Origin: Promethearchaeota archaeon
GTDB taxonomy: Archaea; Asgardarchaeota; Lokiarchaeia; Sigynarchaeales; SOKP01
Direction: 5' to 3'
Length of the DNA stretch: 7,424 nt
Assembly: GCA_019894735.1 (NCBI GenBank)
Contig: JAGXOB010000070.1
Location: 1 to 7,424, forward strand
Shown here: positions 842-7,424 of the stretch, piece after piece
How positions within the stretch are numbered: position 1 is the first letter of the stretch
Layout of the letters: each line of letters opens with the position of its first letter
Notes under the pieces: generated by a model
What the model was told of the DNA's origin: nothing
Seen by the model: only the letters and a program-made list of their open reading frames with translations
Databases searched by the model: none
Translations under genes and position numbers: made by a program

Positions 842-2098
842 ATGCGAGATAATAATAAAAAAAAAGTGGAACTAATGACACCTTTAAAAAATTTTAAATC
901 TTTAAATGCAGTTTTAGGTAAGGCAGATGCGGTTTTTTTTGGTGTAGAAGCTTTTAATATGAGAATGTTCAGCGATAATATCAAGTTAGACGACTTAAGT
1001 AGCATCGTAAAAAAATGCCACGACAACAATATTCTGGCTTATTTAACCACGAATGTGATAGTATATGAAAACGAATTTGACCTACTCAATAAAGTATTAG
1101 ATAATGCTGTCGAAGCAGAAATCGACGCGGTAATCATACACGACATCGGTGTTATTGAAAGCGTTAAAGAAAAGGGTTTATCGTTTCACATCTCAACCCA
1201 GGCCAACATCTCAAATTCCCGGACTGCAAACTTCTATGAAAAGTTAGGAGCTGAAAGGTTAATTCTCGCTAGAGAACTATCATTAGACCAAATTAAAGAT
1301 ATAAAGTGTAAGGCACAAATTGCTGAAATAGAAACTTTTGTTCACGGAGCTCAATGTACTTCTGTATCCGGGCGTTGTTATTTTTCGGCTGAGGTCTGTG
1401 GATCCCAAGAGTATTCTGCTAATAGAGGAAGGTGCGTACAACCTTGTCGCAGAAAATGGCGAGTATATGATGACCAATCAAATGAATTTCTCTACGATGG
1501 AGTTTTTTTCGTTAACTCCAAAGATTTATGCATGATTGGACACATTCCAAAATTAATTGAAGCTAATATTGATGCTTTCAAAATTGAAGGACGAATGAGA
1601 GATCCTATTTATATAGAAGAAACGACCGCGTGTTATAAAGAAGCCATCGAAGCATACTACGACAACACATATACCCCGGATAAAGTCCAGGAGTGGCTAA
1701 ATCGATTAAACAAAGTGTATAATAGAGGTTTTTCAACAGGGTTTTACTTCGGACAACCAAAAGGAAGCGAAATTCAACGAGAACTTGATGGAAATATTTC
1801 AAACTATAAAAAAGTTGAAATTGGAAAGGTTCTTTCTTATTTTCCCGATAAAAAAGCGGCTAAAATTCTCCTGTCAAGAGGTAAATTGCATCTAGACGAC
1901 GAAATATTTATCATTGGAACCCACACAGATACATATTTGCGCCAAAAAATTACATCAATTCAAATTAAACAAAAGGGAAACCTGACTGAAACGCCGTTAA
2001 TTAAAACGCAGAAAGATAGAATAGCCGTAGGAATTTTGGTAGACACCGAAGTTAAGAAAAATGATAAAATCTTTAAACTTGAAGCTAAGCAGTCGTAG
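842..2098 (+). CDS. U32-family protein (peptidase U32 / TrhP-RlhA-like Fe-S protein)
   Basis: This is a 418-residue protein, a usual length for the family. The N-terminal two thirds follow the U32 TIM-barrel pattern: ELMTPLKNF at the start, FHISTQANISN in the middle, and the signature ETFVHGAQCTSVSGRCYFS. Numbered from ATG 842, cysteines 172, 179, 186, 198, 202 and 230 are candidates to bind a 4Fe-4S cluster. In characterised relatives (UbiU, RlhA, TrhP), four cysteines in this arrangement hold the cluster. NSKDLCMIGHIPKLIEANID and DAFKIEGRMR complete the core, and a beta-rich C-terminal domain follows. Despite the name, well-studied members act in oxygen-independent hydroxylation of tRNA, rRNA or quinones rather than proteolysis; which substrate applies here is unknown. 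I chose ATG 842 over the in-frame TTG 836 because AGAGGGA (828-834) sits 7 bases before the ATG but only 1 before the TTG. Cys186 and a two-residue longer spacing before the RGRC cysteine differ from the bacterial pattern I know. Confidence 0.92.
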   Translation: MRDNNKKKVELMTPLKNFKSLNAVLGKADAVFFGVEAFNMRMFSDNIKLDDLSSIVKKCHDNNILAYLTTNVIVYENEFDLLNKVLDNAVEAEIDAVIIHDIGVIESVKEKGLSFHISTQANISNSRTANFYEKLGAERLILARELSLDQIKDIKCKAQIAEIETFVHGAQCTSVSGRCYFSAEVCGSQEYSANRGRCVQPCRRKWRVYDDQSNEFLYDGVFFVNSKDLCMIGHIPKLIEANIDAFKIEGRMRDPIYIEETTACYKEAIEAYYDNTYTPDKVQEWLNRLNKVYNRGFSTGFYFGQPKGSEIQRELDGNISNYKKVEIGKVLSYFPDKKAAKILLSRGKLHLDDEIFIIGTHTDTYLRQKITSIQIKQKGNLTETPLIKTQKDRIAVGILVDTEVKKNDKIFKLEAKQS

Positions 2099-2183: not shown

Positions 2184-2618
2184 CTATAAATCTTCAGCTA
2201 AATCTTCGTACGCTTCTAAAGCAAGCTCGATAATCTCTTGAAAGGCCATTGCGTCTTGAAGATTACCCTCGACGGTAATGTCGCCAGCCATGTATGCGCT
2301 AGTGGCGTCAACTTCGCCGAATAACATACCGGAGCCTACCTCTTTCGTTGCGGAGAATGTAAATGATGGATTTTCTACGTCACCCTCGCCAAATTCCAAT
2401 GAGCCATCGTGGGCTTTTAACCAGAATTTTTTGTCAGCATCGGTAATATTCATTTGGATAGTGATATCCATATCTTCCAATTCTTCTTTTAAATCTTCGT
2501 TTTCTACGGCAATCTGTTTGAACAGCTCGAAAACTTTTAAAGTATCCATTACGTCCGAAGCAGCAGCCCCGGCGTCAAATTTTCCTTTCAACTCTTTTAT
2601 TAAAGCTTCATCAACCAT
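2184..2618 (-). CDS. SCP2 sterol-binding-domain-like protein, acidic paralogue A
   Basis: This is a 144-residue protein made of a single SCP2-like domain; the family is known to bind lipids and other hydrophobic ligands in an internal tunnel. An N-terminal helical region (1-50) is followed by beta strands (DITIQMNITDAD, FWLKAHDG with Trp66, FTFSATKE). The hallmark SCP2 tail is SAYMAGDITVEGNLQDAM (107-124) plus an amphipathic C-terminal helix. It parallels the FFQGKLKITGNMGLAMK segment of eukaryotic SCP2. The protein is strongly acidic, without signal peptide or membrane helix, so cytosolic. It is about 85% identical without gaps to the gene at 2910-3344, and residues 98-136 are identical. The weak ribosome site AGGTTGA lies 6 bases before the ATG. 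Its ligand and partners cannot be told from sequence. Confidence 0.9.
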   Translation of the reverse strand: MVDEALIKELKGKFDAGAAASDVMDTLKVFELFKQIAVENEDLKEELEDMDITIQMNITDADKKFWLKAHDGSLEFGEGDVENPSFTFSATKEVGSGMLFGEVDATSAYMAGDITVEGNLQDAMAFQEIIELALEAYEDLAEDL

Positions 2619-2655
2619 GATTTTTCAACCTTTTATTATACTTTTATGATTTGGT

Positions 2656-2665
2656 ATTTTATTTA
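2656..2665 (-). promoter_or_regulatory. Candidate TATA box for SCP2-like gene A
   Basis: Minus-strand TTAAATAAAA is centred about 43 bases upstream of the ATG. An archaeal start site about 25 bases downstream would give a leader of some 15-20 bases that includes the AGGTTGA ribosome site. Such motifs are frequent by chance in AT-rich DNA. The gap between the two SCP2 genes (2619-2909) shows no gene; it also holds the terminator of the upstream paralogue. Confidence 0.3.
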
Positions 2666-2831
2666 AGATTTTGATAGATTAAACAAATACTATAATGTAT
2701 AACTCTTTACACTATAAAAAGGTTTTATTTCTTTTGGTAATTATACTGCGAAATCTATAGTTACTTTAGTCTGCTACTGAATAATTTTGCGAAATTTGTC
2801 GAATATCAAAAATTCATAATCAGTAATTTAA

Positions 2832-2875
2832 TAAAAAGGAACAAAAAAAATATAGAATTAAAAAGAAAAAGTAAA
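2832..2875 (-). terminator. Oligo-T terminator region of SCP2-like gene B (minus strand)
   Basis: The minus strand reads several T runs, including an 8-T run at 2843-2850 and 5-T runs on both sides, starting about 35 bases past the TAG stop of gene B. With the candidate promoter upstream of gene A, this suggests the two paralogues are transcribed separately. Confidence 0.45.
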
Positions 2876-2909
2876 ATTTAAGTTATTACTAAAGAAGATG
2901 TTTGCGTTT

Positions 2910-3344
2910 CTATAGATCTTCAAACATGTCTTCAAGAGCTTCTAAAGCTAGTTCAATAATCTCTTGAAAGGCCATTGCGTCTTGAAGATTACCTTCAACG
3001 GTAATATCACCAGCCATGTATGCGCTAGTAGCGTCAACTTCGCCGAATAACATACCTGAGGCTACTTCTTTCGTAGCAGAGAATGTGAATGATGGATTAT
3101 CTACTACACCTTCGCCAAATTCCATAGTTCCATCGTGAGCTTTTAACCAGAATTTTGCGTCAGCATCGGTAATATTCATTTGGATAGTGATATCCATGTC
3201 TTCCAATTCTTCTTTTAAATCGTCGTTCTCTTCAGCAACTTGCTTAAAGAGCTCGTAAACTTTTAGTGTATCTTTTACGTCTGCTGCCGCGGCACCAGCT
3301 TCCATTTTTTCCTTCACTTCTTTTAATAAGGCTTGGTCAACCAT
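2910..3344 (-). CDS. SCP2 sterol-binding-domain-like protein, acidic paralogue B
   Basis: This 144-residue protein is a tandem paralogue of the gene at 2184-2618; I count 21 differing residues and no gaps. Most changes fall in the N-terminal helix (Q4, KEKMEAG) and the last ten residues (LEDMFEDL), while the SCP2 core and the SAYMAGDITVEGNLQDAM segment are unchanged. DNA identity is high across the coding region but is lost in both flanks, which points to selection on the protein rather than a very recent copy. A good ribosome site, AGAGG (minus strand 3359-3355), sits 10 bases before the ATG, stronger than that of gene A. Predicted cytosolic, acidic, lipid or hydrophobic-ligand binding by family. 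Confidence 0.9.
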   Translation of the reverse strand: MVDQALLKEVKEKMEAGAAAADVKDTLKVYELFKQVAEENDDLKEELEDMDITIQMNITDADAKFWLKAHDGTMEFGEGVVDNPSFTFSATKEVASGMLFGEVDATSAYMAGDITVEGNLQDAMAFQEIIELALEALEDMFEDL

Positions 3345-3571
3345 TGTTTTTTAACCTCTTTTTGAATTTTAACTTATAATTTTAGTTTAACAATTAAATT
3401 GAATTGTGATTATAGATAATTTTTTGTAATTTATAAACCTTTAATCGTTACCCCTACAAATTTCAAAAAGTTTTTATTGGGGTTTGAAAAATTTGATGTA
3501 AAAATGAAATTCCTATTAGTTAGAATGAGATTTATCAAAAGATTTTATCGTTACTTATTGAAATAATAGAG

Positions 3572-3577
3572 AAAAAA
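3572..3577 (-). terminator. Oligo-T terminator directly after tRNA-Asp
   Basis: On the minus strand six T residues follow immediately after the encoded CCA end of the tRNA, the usual arrangement for an archaeal tRNA transcript. Confidence 0.55.
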
Positions 3578-3594
3578 TGGCGCCCACACCGGGA

Positions 3595-3624
3595 GTTTCA
3601 TCGCGTATGGTTTTCACACGCGGA
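3595..3624 (-). other. BHB intron at tRNA-Asp position 59/60 (T-loop)
   Basis: A 30-base intron splits the T-loop. Exon TTCA pairs with intron TGAA as the 4-bp central helix. The flanking 3-nt bulges are AAT and ACT. The archaeal rule (cut after the second bulge base on each side) gives AA^T and AC^T and restores a perfect TTCAAAT loop closed by CCGGG/CCCGG. Inside the intron CGCGTGTG and CATACGCG form an 8-bp hairpin with loop AAAAC. Confidence 0.85.
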
Positions 3625-3676
3625 TTTGAACCCGGGTCGCAGGAGTGACAGTCCCGAATGCTGGACCGGACTACAC

Positions 3677-3706
3677 TTTCACACTTGTACAGGTTTTCTG
3701 TATCAA
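3677..3706 (-). other. Intron in tRNA-Asp near position 9 (acceptor/D-arm junction)
   Basis: About 30 bases lie between the acceptor stem plus TA and the D-stem GTGT. Exon CACA pairs with intron TGTG to give a 4-bp central helix with bulges TAT and AAA, and intron TACAG/CTGTA forms a hairpin with loop AAAAC. The strict bulge rule leaves one extra A between positions 9 and 10, so the 3' boundary is uncertain by one base. Confidence 0.7.
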
Positions 3707-3735
3707 TATGTGGGCTTTATCTGCATAATGGGCAT

Positions 3736-3762
3736 AATCTAAATTAAATTTAATCTAAATTA
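3736..3762 (-). promoter_or_regulatory. Candidate tRNA-Asp promoter with an 11-bp direct repeat
   Basis: The plus-strand word AATCTAAATTA occurs twice (3736-3746 and 3752-3762), 16 bases apart. On the minus strand this places AT-rich TTTAATTTAG about 25-35 bases before the tRNA 5' end, where an archaeal TATA box is expected. The repeat may be a doubled TATA element or chance. The rest of the gap up to 4166 has no open frame I would call a gene. Confidence 0.35.
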
Positions 3763-3914
3763 GTGATTAATCAAATAATGAAAAATATAAAAATTTTATT
3801 GTATAACCGTTTTTACTTTTATCTAAGCTTAATTATAGAATTGATTATTTAATATATTTTACTAGATATACTCCTGCAAAAAGTAAGATTTGGAAAGTTT
3901 TTTAAGATTTGATT

Positions 3915-3950
3915 TAGAATCGATTCTAGTTGTTTCGAAATTAGAATTTC
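3915..3950. repeat. Two adjacent short palindromes in the 3716-4166 intergenic region
   Basis: TAGAATCGATTCTA (3915-3928) is a perfect 14-bp palindrome. GAAATT-AG-AATTTC (3937-3950) follows 8 bases later. Both share the word TTAGAAT. Such symmetric sites are typical of dimeric regulator operators, but this one is about 215 bases from the nearest start codon. Short palindromes also arise by chance in AT-rich DNA. Confidence 0.3.
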
Positions 3951-4124
3951 TTAAAACACCATATTCTGATTTTGTTTTATTATGGAACAAAGGAATTAAA
4001 CAATAACGGTAAAGGAAATCAGTAATTTATATGGTTTATAATATTTGGAATAAAAGATTAAAATTGAATGAAATTAGGATGGAATTTCTTGATATAAGCA
4101 TCATTAGAAAAATTAAATAACTTA

Positions 4125-4134
4125 TCTATAAAAA
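4125..4134 (+). promoter_or_regulatory. Candidate TATA box of the methyltransferase gene
   Basis: TCTATAAAAA is centred about 37 bases before ATG 4167. Transcription about 25 bases downstream would start near 4155 and give a leader of some 12 bases. That is consistent with the absence of a ribosome binding site there. Confidence 0.4.
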
Positions 4135-4166
4135 TTTTAATCGAATGAAATTTTGTATTGTTTATT

Positions 4167-4733
4167 ATGGAAGAAAAAATTCAATTTATCGATCCTCAGA
4201 AGATTGATCTGACAAATTTCGAGCTAAAAGGGAGAATCTTGGATATAGGCGGAGGAGGAGAGGGAGTAATTGGTCAATTAAAAGGAAAACAAGTAGTAGC
4301 AATTGATCCTAAGAAAACTGAACTTGAAGAGGCTGCTTCAGGCGATTATTTAAAAATTATAATGGATGCAAAGGATTTACAGTTTTTAGACGACACTTTT
4401 GATACTATAACCGCTTTTTTCACATTAATGTATATCCCTCTTTCAGATCATCAAAAAGTATTCGAGGAGATTTATCGCGTTACAAAAAAGGGAGGGGAAT
4501 TTGTCATCTGGGATTTTAAAATTCCGAAGCGAAAAAGCTCTGATAAGGATTTCTATGGTCTTTACTTGGAAGTTAAGATTAGAGAGAAAAATATCTCAAC
4601 GGGGTATGCTACAAAATGGAAAAGAGAACAAGATTTAGAATATTACTTAAATCTAGGTAAGTCGATTGGATTTAAAATCTTAGAAAGTCATATAACCAAT
4701 GAAGTATTCCAAATCAGATTCCAAAAAGAGTAG
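4167..4733 (+). CDS. Class I SAM-dependent methyltransferase
   Basis: This 188-residue protein has the standard Rossmann-type motifs. Motif I is RILDIGGGGEGVIGQL (23-38), the SAM-binding glycine loop. The acidic end of strand 2 is VVAIDP (Asp47), which binds the ribose of SAM. Motif II/III is IIMDAKDLQFLDDTFD, followed by ITAFFTLMYIPLSD, and EEIYRVTKKGGEFVIWDF is the post-motif helix and strand. This is the methyltransferase 11/25 type acting on small molecules, lipids or proteins; the substrate is not readable. I preferred ATG 4167 to the in-frame TTG 4158 because it starts MEEKIQF and suits the short leader from the upstream TATA box. It precedes two divergent SCP2-like genes on the same strand, but 183 bases and T runs (4756-4761, 4829-4834) separate them, so co-transcription is doubtful. 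No signal peptide or membrane helix is present. Confidence 0.88.
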   Translation: MEEKIQFIDPQKIDLTNFELKGRILDIGGGGEGVIGQLKGKQVVAIDPKKTELEEAASGDYLKIIMDAKDLQFLDDTFDTITAFFTLMYIPLSDHQKVFEEIYRVTKKGGEFVIWDFKIPKRKSSDKDFYGLYLEVKIREKNISTGYATKWKREQDLEYYLNLGKSIGFKILESHITNEVFQIRFQKE

Positions 4734-4755
4734 TATTTGGTAGATTTAATAATCG

Positions 4756-4761
4756 TTTTTT
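4756..4761 (+). terminator. Oligo-T terminator after the methyltransferase
   Basis: Six T residues follow the stop by about 22 bases, with a second six-T run at 4829-4834. These are weak but plausible archaeal U-tract terminators. Confidence 0.35.
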
Positions 4762-4844
4762 CATTTACCAACAAACTAACTTCATCAATAGAAATCTTTT
4801 GATTCCACATTAATATTCCATATTAAACTTTTTTCTGAAGAAAT

Positions 4845-4855
4845 AAAAATATATA
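4845..4855 (+). promoter_or_regulatory. Candidate TATA box of divergent SCP2-like gene C
   Basis: AAAAATATATA is centred about 67 bases before ATG 4917 and would give a leader near 40 bases that includes the purine-rich AGGAATAAGGA. A second AT-rich element, TTTATTTATA (4867-4876), would give a shorter leader; I cannot choose between them. Confidence 0.25.
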
Positions 4856-4916
4856 GTCGTTTTATCTTTATTTATAGGAATAAGGATTTTTCAAAGAAGT
4901 ATTTATCTGTAAACCT

Positions 4917-5348
4917 ATGGTCAGTCAAAACCCAATTAGTTCAATTTTGAAAAGTTTGGACAAGGATAGTAAGAAATTTGCTTATGTGTTAGATAAAATC
5001 ATTAAGACTGTAGTAAAAATCATGAACAATACAGGAGAACTAAAGGAGGAACTAATAGGTTATGACGATATTTATCAAACATATGTGACTGATGCAGATT
5101 TTAATTATTGGTTGGAAGTATCGGAAGGTAGCATTTATTACGAGAAAGGAATTAACCCTAAAGCTTTATTTACCATTAACTTTAAGAAGGATATAATTAT
5201 TCAAATTTTAAAAAATGAAATAAGCGGGACAGATGCTTTCATGAAAGGAAAAATTAATGTCGAAGGGTCTCTCTCTCAAGGGTTAAGATATATAAAGCTT
5301 TTCCGAATATTTGTAAAGTATCTAAGTAAAAAAAACGGTAGTAATTAA
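4917..5348 (+). CDS. Divergent SCP2-like protein C, lysine-rich
   Basis: This 143-residue protein is a single SCP2-like domain, recognisable by alignment to paralogues A and B. LKEELIGYDD matches LKEELEDMDI, VTDADFNYWLEVSEGSIYY (Trp65) matches ITDADKKFWLKAHDGSLEF, and DAFMKGKINVEGSL (106-119) matches SAYMAGDITVEGNL. Identity is low outside these blocks. A and B are acidic, whereas this one is lysine-rich and ends in YLSKKNGSN, so its surface charge and probably its partner differ. The start is ATG 4917; no close ribosome site is visible, the nearest purine-rich stretch being about 30 bases upstream. It is followed 129 bases later by a second divergent paralogue. Predicted cytosolic; ligand unknown. 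Confidence 0.78.
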   Translation: MVSQNPISSILKSLDKDSKKFAYVLDKIIKTVVKIMNNTGELKEELIGYDDIYQTYVTDADFNYWLEVSEGSIYYEKGINPKALFTINFKKDIIIQILKNEISGTDAFMKGKINVEGSLSQGLRYIKLFRIFVKYLSKKNGSN

Positions 5349-5399
5349 TCGTTTTCTACTTCTTATCATGGCAATATTATATAATACTATAAGTGATCA

Positions 5400-5446
5400 A
5401 TCAATAGTATTTTCATAATATTGATAGTAAGAATTACGATCGTAAT
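5400..5446 (+). promoter_or_regulatory. Inverted repeats upstream of SCP2-like gene D, possible operator
   Basis: ATTACGATCGTAAT (5433-5446) is a perfect 14-bp palindrome ending 31 bases before the start codon. ATCAATA (5400-5406) and TATTGAT (5419-5425) form a second inverted repeat with a 12-base spacer just upstream. The position fits an operator over the promoter of gene D, though no regulator gene is in view. Confidence 0.35.
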
Positions 5447-5477
5447 AAGTTTTAAAATTAAAGTCTTAGAGGGATAA

Positions 5478-5939
5478 ATGTTAGTAATGATTGATTCAAA
5501 TGCTATATTGATGATGCTAAATTCATTGGAGTCGTCAGAAAGCACATTTAAATCTACAATAGACAAGTTCATTAGACTAGGAATAAAGATTGCAGGTGAA
5601 ACCGAAGAATTTTATGAAGAATTGAAATTATACGATGACAAAATGTACCACATATACATTAAGGACATTGATTATAATATCTGGTTAAAGAAGATCGGTG
5701 GATCGGTTACCTACAACAATTCGTTCTACGAAGAAAATTCAGAGGGGTTGGGCGTAATTCACTTTTTTCTTAGCAAAACTACCATGAAAAAAGTCATAAC
5801 ACGGAAAATACAAGCAGCTGATGCGTTTATGAGAGGTTTAATTAAAACTAGGGGTTCGTTATCTGATGCTATTCACGCAAAAAATCTTCTATCTTTATTT
5901 TTTACTCATATGGATTATATCGCCTACAATTCTGATTAA
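5478..5939 (+). CDS. Divergent SCP2-like protein D
   Basis: This 153-residue protein is the most divergent of the four SCP2-like proteins in the window. Recognisable blocks are EEFYEELKLYDDKMY, IKDIDYNIWLKKIGGSVTY (Trp69) and AADAFMRGLIKTRGSL (113-128), in the same order and spacing as in gene C. An insertion of roughly ten residues (NNSFYEENSEG) lies after the second strand. Thr-Arg replaces Val-Glu in the core tail motif. The start at ATG 5478 is supported by AGAGGGA (5468-5474) 3 bases upstream, a slightly short spacing; ATG 5487 is the alternative. It may be a lipid-binding paralogue or a member that has changed ligand. A hairpin terminator follows. Confidence 0.7.
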   Translation: MLVMIDSNAILMMLNSLESSESTFKSTIDKFIRLGIKIAGETEEFYEELKLYDDKMYHIYIKDIDYNIWLKKIGGSVTYNNSFYEENSEGLGVIHFFLSKTTMKKVITRKIQAADAFMRGLIKTRGSLSDAIHAKNLLSLFFTHMDYIAYNSD

Positions 5940-5970: not shown

Positions 5971-6080
5971 AATGGGATAGATAATTTTTTTAGAAATAAA
6001 ATATAACATTAAACATTCAATTTTTTCTCATCGTATGTTTTAAATCAGAAAAAATTGGGCCTGTAATCTAGCCTGGATAA

Positions 6081-6108
6081 TTGTGAGATATTTTATCGCA
6101 CGATCCTA
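6081..6108 (+). other. BHB intron in the D-loop of tRNA-Arg
   Basis: Exon GGAT (6075-6078) pairs with intron ATCC (6103-6106) as the 4-bp central helix, with bulges AAT and TAG. Cutting AA^T and TA^G removes 28 bases. The inside forms a stem from TTGTGAGAT and ATCGCACGA with one mismatch. A 30-base alternative (6080-6109) would give the more usual 10-base D-loop, so boundaries are uncertain by a base or two. Confidence 0.75.
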
Positions 6109-6133
6109 GGGGTGCCCGGCTTCGGACTGGGAT

Positions 6134-6161
6134 GTTAGATGGAATATTCCATCGACCCAAA
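6134..6161 (+). other. BHB intron at tRNA-Arg position 45/46 (variable loop)
   Basis: Exon TGGG (6128-6131) pairs with intron CCCA (6156-6159) as the 4-bp central helix, with bulges ATG and AAG. Cutting AT^G and AA^G removes 28 bases and leaves a standard five-base variable loop ATGTC. The intron core GATGGAATATTCCATC is a perfect palindrome forming its hairpin. Confidence 0.85.
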
Positions 6162-6194
6162 GTCGCAGGTTCAAATCCTGCCAGGCCCATTAAA

Positions 6195-6489: not shown

Positions 6490-7290
6490 ATGATCGAATT
6501 AGATGATATTTCTCAGGATTCATTGGTGCTACCAAAGGCAATCCAAGTGTTAGGTATAGGTTTAGTTTCAATGACCGAAAATCGATATAATCTTGTGTTC
6601 AATAAAGGGATTAGCCGTTCACTAATAAAAGACTTAATACATCTCTATCGTATCGAGATTTTAAGTAAGAAAGAAGGAAAAATAATAGACCTACTTGGAG
6701 TTTTCACAGTTTACATTCATTTTTATTCTTATGGGAACGAAAGAATCACATTATTCTATATAAACGAGAAAGATAAGTTAGTTAAATATGAAGATCTTTG
6801 TTCATTTTCGAGATTATTAGCTAAATTATATTGTTCAAATGTCTCACATTCCAAAATAAGGCAAATCTGTAATAAAGCAATTCCTTGTGTTAAAGGGCTT
6901 TCGGCACTCTTTGTAATTAGTACAAATGGTCACACATTATTTACAAAAATCAGAAATGATAAGTCAAAACTAATAAATAATTCTGTCCAAATTGGGGGTT
7001 TTCTGTCTGCTATTTTAATGTTTTCAAATGAAATTATTGGCAAAAACTCTGGAGAAAGTCTTCAATCCATTAATTTTGAAAACCAGCAATTTCTTATAAC
7101 TGTCGAACACGAAATCATTTTTGCATATCTTGTAGAAGAATCAACAAAATCTGAAACTATAGAAAGATATATAGAATTGATAAGAGAGGAATTTTTTGAG
7201 CTATACTACGACTGCTTGACAGATTTCAATGGTGATCTCAACCAATTTCACACTTTTGAACCAGTAGTTGAAAAATATTTTTCAATTTAA
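6490..7290 (+). CDS. Probable tandem longin-domain protein (Asgard trafficking-type)
   Basis: This is a 266-residue soluble protein. Residues about 133-245 follow the longin-like pattern I associate with Asgard proteins: a strand ALFVISTNGHTLFTK, then the helix-turn GGFLSAILMFSNEIIG, then strands SINFENQQFLITVEHEIIFAYLVEES and a long C-terminal helix. Residues about 20-115 show a similar order (GIGLVSMTENRYNLVFNKG, VFTVYIHFYSYGNERITLFYIN, FSRLLAKLYC) and are probably a second, more diverged longin domain. Longin domains in eukaryotes sit on small-GTPase regulators (Mon1-Ccz1, Ragulator-type) and SNAREs. Here the likely partner is a Ras-like GTPase, but none is in the window. No membrane segment or signal peptide. 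The start ATG 6490 lacks a clear ribosome site. The identification rests on fold pattern, not on a diagnostic motif. Confidence 0.72.
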   Translation: MIELDDISQDSLVLPKAIQVLGIGLVSMTENRYNLVFNKGISRSLIKDLIHLYRIEILSKKEGKIIDLLGVFTVYIHFYSYGNERITLFYINEKDKLVKYEDLCSFSRLLAKLYCSNVSHSKIRQICNKAIPCVKGLSALFVISTNGHTLFTKIRNDKSKLINNSVQIGGFLSAILMFSNEIIGKNSGESLQSINFENQQFLITVEHEIIFAYLVEESTKSETIERYIELIREEFFELYYDCLTDFNGDLNQFHTFEPVVEKYFSI

Positions 7291-7383: not shown

Positions 7384-7424
7384 ATGACGCTGATAATAGA
7401 TATGGACGCTATATTGGACAATTT
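7384..7424 (+). CDS. 5' end of a gene cut by the window edge
   Basis: An open frame starts at ATG 7384 and runs to the last base, giving MTLIIDMDAILDN. It follows a well-placed TATA-like element. Its first residues resemble those of SCP2-like protein D (MLVMIDSNAILMML; shared I-D-x-x-A-I-L), so it could be a further divergent SCP2-like paralogue. Thirteen residues are too few to be sure; it may be unrelated. Confidence 0.4.
   Translation, partial: MTLIIDMDAILDN

Follow-up and report, generated by a model that had tools for sequence, protein, structure and literature searches.

A conserved cluster of SCP2-like genes in Lokiarchaea, with an invariant island in its acidic pair

Why would an archaeal chromosome hold four SCP2-like genes within 3.8 kb? 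The question is raised by contig JAGXOB010000070.1 of a Promethearchaeota archaeon, considered here over 7,424 nt ('the window'), where an earlier note, made from the sequence alone, had described four single-domain reading frames. All four are there: genes A (2184..2618) and B (2910..3344), each of 144 amino acids (aa), on the minus strand, and genes C (4917..5348; 143 aa) and D (5478..5939) on the plus strand. The cluster is real and conserved in Lokiarchaea; it is mostly an ordinary gene-family expansion and no new kind of system. Its one notable, and least expected, feature is a 29-residue island that is invariant among A and B copies. As for function, we assign a probability of about 65% to the reading that the four paralogous, stand-alone SCP2-type proteins would serve as soluble carriers of one apolar molecule.

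SCP2 family membership and fold

Scores against PF02036 (curated cut-off 21.3 bits) were above the cut-off for gene A (53.0 bits, E = 4.8e-14), gene B (51.9 bits, E = 1e-13) and gene C (35.5 bits, E = 1.3e-8). Gene A also matched the PDB sequences 3cnu (E = 5e-8) and 3bn8 (E = 4.7e-7), and gene C matched 3cnu (E = 1e-8); A has orthologs in conserved gene order, and B is close to A in sequence. Searches with B and C collected 520 and 295 homologs, respectively, at E ≤ 1e-3, several of them carrying an SCP2 label in sequence databases already. Judged by their sequences, genes A, B and C are members of the SCP2 family.

Gene D, the divergent sister of C, stayed under the cut-off (18.1 bits, E = 3.5e-3); yet 12 of the 17 members of its family matched PF02036 at E ≤ 0.1 (the best at 4e-6), and hhalign of the D family gave 99.5% to C and 95.9% to A/B. 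Structure prediction, a check proposed by the earlier note, yielded for D the alpha/beta SCP2 fold with an added N-terminal helical stretch. The suggestion that all four genes are SCP2-like therefore holds on family scores for A, B and C, and for D on its family's matches and its predicted fold. The misgiving that C and D might miss the SCP2 profiles or adopt a different fold does not apply to C; for D, the sequence by itself misses the cut-off, while the predicted fold agrees with SCP2. We regard D as a related protein of predicted SCP2 fold, not as a cut-off-passing member of PF02036. As listed, D has 153 aa; beginning at the ATG at 5487 it would have 150 aa, and 5487 is probably the start instead of 5478, because many D homologs are 150 aa long with an MI(D/G)S start.

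The motif A[YF]MxGxIxxxG[NS]L, said to link all four proteins, was indeed found in each of them. Among listed homologs it occurred in 119 of 120 from the B search, 115 of 120 from the C search and 21 of 83 from the D search, 78 of these 83 having a looser form. To call A and B near-identical was too strong: they share 123 of 144 residues (85%) and 367 of 435 bases, while C and D share 49 of 143 residues. Net charges (computed as K+R-D-E) were -25 for A, -25 for B, +4 for C and -2 for D, and the medians of listed homologs were the same (-25 for A/B, +4 for C, -2 for D). The proposed opposition of charges thus holds between A/B and C, but D is not basic.

The invariant island of A and B

The island, GEVDATSAYMAGDITVEGNLQDAMAFQEI, occupies residues 101-129 of A (2232..2318, minus strand) and positions 2958..3044 (minus strand) in B. 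It was identical in 22 of 22 A/B copies from the window and loci L001–L014, and again in 25 of 25 copies from 20 outer regions (20 of the 61 genomes in which A/B was matched at E ≤ 1e-40); that is, in 47 of 47 copies overall, A/B genes with in-frame stops and weaker A/B matches having been left out. In the 25 outer copies the preceding 96-97 residues matched window A at 55-81 positions only. Among the 120 listed homologs of the B search, a search that favours shared words and so biases this conservation upward, the 36-residue stretch around the island was free of mismatches in 89; 24 homologs had a single mismatch there, five had two and one had five, and one further homolog had a deletion. 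SCP2 paralogs elsewhere in the genome matched the island at 5-20 of its 29 residues, and C and D at 6-12.

What could keep such a segment constant? A cause at the RNA level, or an overlapping gene, is unsupported, as same-codon use within the island is ordinary; codon choice there is not unusually conserved, and therefore selection on the protein is indicated. Within the SCP2 domain, the island falls in the C-terminal part, a region that also helps to form the ligand tunnel in solved SCP2 proteins. One could imagine that A and B, rather than being carriers, are acidic binding proteins with an SCP2 fold and that their island serves to dock a conserved partner, the ability to bind lipid having been lost or become secondary; a net charge of -25 and identity in all compared copies would suit such a role. 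A constraint from the ligand explains the island equally well, though, given the contribution of this part of the domain to the tunnel, and we consider this alternative to a carrier role unlikely.

Proposed function

If the four proteins are carriers, the SCP2 tunnel of each would shelter a single apolar molecule, be it an isoprenoid lipid, a precursor of lipids or a compound resembling a quinone, and the carrier would hand it on to enzymes or membranes. A and B, being strongly acidic, would remain in the cytosol; C and D, near-neutral to basic, may make contact with the membrane or with some other partner, and the island of A and B may form a ligand- or partner-binding face.

Several known proteins invite comparison. 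The solved chains of the SCP-2 family PF02036 from Archaeoglobus (AF_1534; PDB 3cnu, 3bn8) have 116-128 aa against 143-153 aa here; compared with members of this type, four genes are clustered in the window, A and B are far more acidic than C and D, and an N-terminal helical stretch is added (in the D model only). From UbiJ and UbiT of ubiquinone synthesis the locus differs in lacking a UbiU/UbiV pair and in U32 linkage, seen in 4 of 14 outer loci (see below); identity to UbiJ is ∼11%. Unlike the alkyl sulfatase C-terminal domain (PF14864), genes A–D come without a metallo-beta-lactamase catalytic part, and PF02036 gives the higher score for A, B and C.

Among known organisms, the Asgard archaea are the nearest relatives of eukaryotes. 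In the literature available to our search, no paper was found on SCP2 or sterol carrier proteins in Asgard archaea or Lokiarchaea; Asgard GTPases, roadblock and longin proteins are treated in PMC10933270, where SCP2 goes unmentioned in the portion of the text available to us. A set of soluble SCP2 proteins that is conserved and duplicated, and that has one near-invariant surface, offers a concrete and cheap target for lipid-binding tests. Taken as a whole, the earlier description of the locus was right as to genes, motif and the family of A–C and had to be corrected as to charge, identity and a fifth gene (see below), while its interpretation is supported in part, its idea of carriers specialised for different lipids or membranes being a conjecture.

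Distribution and evolutionary history

When named genomes were scanned with the C family, 14 loci came up, all from metagenome-assembled genomes (MAGs) of Lokiarchaeota/Lokiarchaeia; the DNA of the window is accordingly most likely of Lokiarchaeal origin. By source name the homologs were mostly from Lokiarchaeota or Promethearchaeota, with a few from Hermodarchaeota and one from a MAG labelled Nanopelagicaceae. SCP2 genes are numerous in these organisms: PF02036 matched 6-11 times in each of 11 Lokiarchaeal genomes, and at least once in 100 of 119 genomes of the phylum, with a maximum of 13.

Of 227 genomes examined in the phylum, 39 contained an ortholog of C (E ≤ 1e-35), and in 32 of these 39 an A/B gene lay within 5 kb of it (a count made by hand, genome G006 entering through a contig-edge fragment). 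In the other C-bearing genomes A/B was ∼7 kb (G184) or ∼48 kb (G185) away, C stood at a contig end (G195, G196), or the contig bearing C had no A/B (G120, G194, G198). Among the 17 loci fetched in this survey, a true D adjoins C only in three nearer ones (L048, L049, L051); the remaining loci have C without D, except that L040 has a second C/D-like copy. The earlier note had tied its proposal to such clusters not being routine across Asgard genomes; within Lokiarchaea they largely are, with 32 of 39 genomes showing the association and multi-copy SCP2 common in the phylum.

In a tree of 43 SCP2 proteins A and B were grouped with other acidic SCP2 proteins, and C with D; support for the C/D group was 90/92, with several long branches in the tree and 12 of its 40 internal nodes left open. 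The repeated duplication of an SCP2-type carrier that had been proposed is supported by this tree and, because of the two placements, the cluster most likely comprises two lineages, A/B and C/D, each duplicated separately.

The A/B pair (2184-3344, minus strand) has a mosaic-like appearance, with orthology between genomes in the first third and greater likeness within the genome in the rest. At silent sites, A and B of the window used the same codon at 18 of 35 positions in the first third, 30 of 38 in the middle and 29 of 39 in the last; for window A and its L001 ortholog the corresponding values were 35 of 41, 27 of 39 and 31 of 40. Because the agreement of A with B at silent sites is about as good as that between the orthologs except in the first third, the comparison suggests local gene conversion between the two genes.

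Neighbouring genes

Along the plus strand the order is: M48-type peptidase, U32, A, B, tRNA-Asp, methyltransferase, C, D, tRNA-Arg, a longin-type gene and the start of a gene for a 118-aa protein. Positions 1-732 encode the last 243 aa of a membrane peptidase of the M48 type, whose full-length ortholog in L003 (572 aa) matches PF01435 (E = 1.4e-28). The U32-family gene (842..2098, plus strand) matches PF01136 (E = 2.1e-76), and a generic class I S-adenosylmethionine-dependent methyltransferase gene (4167..4733, plus strand) matches PF08241 (E = 1.2e-15), with UbiE-type NCBIfam models far below cut-off.

The adjacency of U32, SCP2 and UbiE-like genes brings to mind an oxygen-independent lipid-modifying module like UbiT-UbiU-UbiV with UbiE, in which the U32 protein would hydroxylate, and the methyltransferase methylate, a quinone-like lipid held on SCP2 carriers. 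The U32 protein has cysteines spaced CX6CX18CX3C, with a further Cys 230, and so conforms to the four-cysteine 4Fe-4S pattern general to U32 proteins and not specific to UbiU; U32 proteins have been shown to bind 4Fe-4S through a cysteine set of this kind (PMC6747719). The spacing in UbiU is CX6CX16CX38C, unlike that of the window protein. U32 matches number one to four per genome in 11 Lokiarchaeal genomes, the paralog at the SCP2 cluster having the full cysteine set, so one of them may have another role.

The closest NCBIfam model for the U32 gene, however, was that of TrhP, a tRNA hydroxylase (187.8 bits, cut-off 534), followed by UbiU (134, cut-off 440) and UbiV (61.6, cut-off 275), all far below cut-off; and the window has a single U32 gene against the two that form the UbiU-UbiV heterodimer (PMC6747719).

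Gene linkage was surveyed in 14 outer loci kept apart from 10 nearer ones; the counts are lower bounds, as the regions differ in length (13 kb in L036, 9 kb in L040, and L037 bounded by the start of its contig). In the neighbourhood of A/B and C, 4 of these 14 loci had U32 and 4 had M48, and none had the methyltransferase at E < 1e-10, a profile giving one weak 36-bit match to it in L044; the nearest upstream flanking genes were found in 8-13 of 14, and more distant downstream ones in 0-8. With the U32 linkage lost in most outer loci, the case for a Ubi-like module is weakened, and we consider it quite improbable.

The longin gene was found in 10 and the 118-aa gene in 13 of the 14 outer loci. 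The longin-type gene (6490-7290) scored 22.5 bits against PF19036 (Mon1/Fuz-type), under the cut-off of 26.1; in the secondary structure of its model two putative bb-a-bbb-a units could be read and no third was seen, only residues 133-266 being well tested. The gene beginning at 7384 (7384-7424, plus strand) had been offered as a possible fifth SCP2 gene; its orthologs are 118 aa long (e.g. L003:12453-12809), four members scanned had no Pfam match at E ≤ 10, and the SCP2 assignment was dropped. This protein is strongly conserved (86% mean column identity over four orthologs), and no solved relative was found. By eye only, it appears roadblock-like.

One could speculate that SCP2 carriers, the putative tandem-longin protein and the 118-aa protein form a membrane-identity module, with lipid cargo steered by a small-GTPase regulator. 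Other flanking genes are equally conserved in the outer loci, however (a 227-aa gene in 13 of 14, acetyl-CoA hydrolase in 12 and zinc-ribbon genes in 11), so that the linkage amounts to block synteny at most; D and the longin gene are separated by a tRNA gene, and none of the eight proteins of the window was identified as a GTPase. Structural matches of the longin model to Mon1/Fuzzy in the Foldseek list had TM-scores of 0.22-0.29 and root-mean-square deviations of 15-20 Å over the whole protein; Mon1-Ccz1 was not among the 50 matches listed for it in VIA and appeared in the Foldseek list with low TM-scores and large deviations, and the longin profile returned three weak, unrelated matches only against the PDB. 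Such a module is, in our opinion, very unlikely.

We are as doubtful of a wider version: a dedicated lipid-handling set, with acidic A/B bearing the frozen island and C/D as partner, that would be steered at membranes by the tandem-longin protein and would represent early regulated lipid trafficking. A functional operon with the longin gene was inseparable from block synteny, the longin and 118-aa genes being linked no better than nearby flanking genes. The neighbours are part of a chromosomal block that is itself conserved, and they need have no role in common with the carriers.

tRNA genes

Scans of the window by ARAGORN and Rfam called no tRNA and missed two tRNA genes, both recognised by comparison with orthologs. 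The tRNA-Asp(GTC) gene (about 3578-3715, minus strand) differs from the insert-free, 78-base copy in L003 by two inserts of ∼30 bases. One follows base 8 (about 3678-3707), the other interrupts the T loop, and both are likely archaeal introns at unusual places. The tRNA-Arg(TCG) gene (about 6057-6189, plus strand) is ∼133 bases long and contains two inserts, at about 6080-6109 and at about 6136-6161, while its orthologs, whole in L004, L006, L007, L008, L011 and L012, have 76-77 bases. The inserts of this tRNA-Arg gene are present in some relatives and absent from others.
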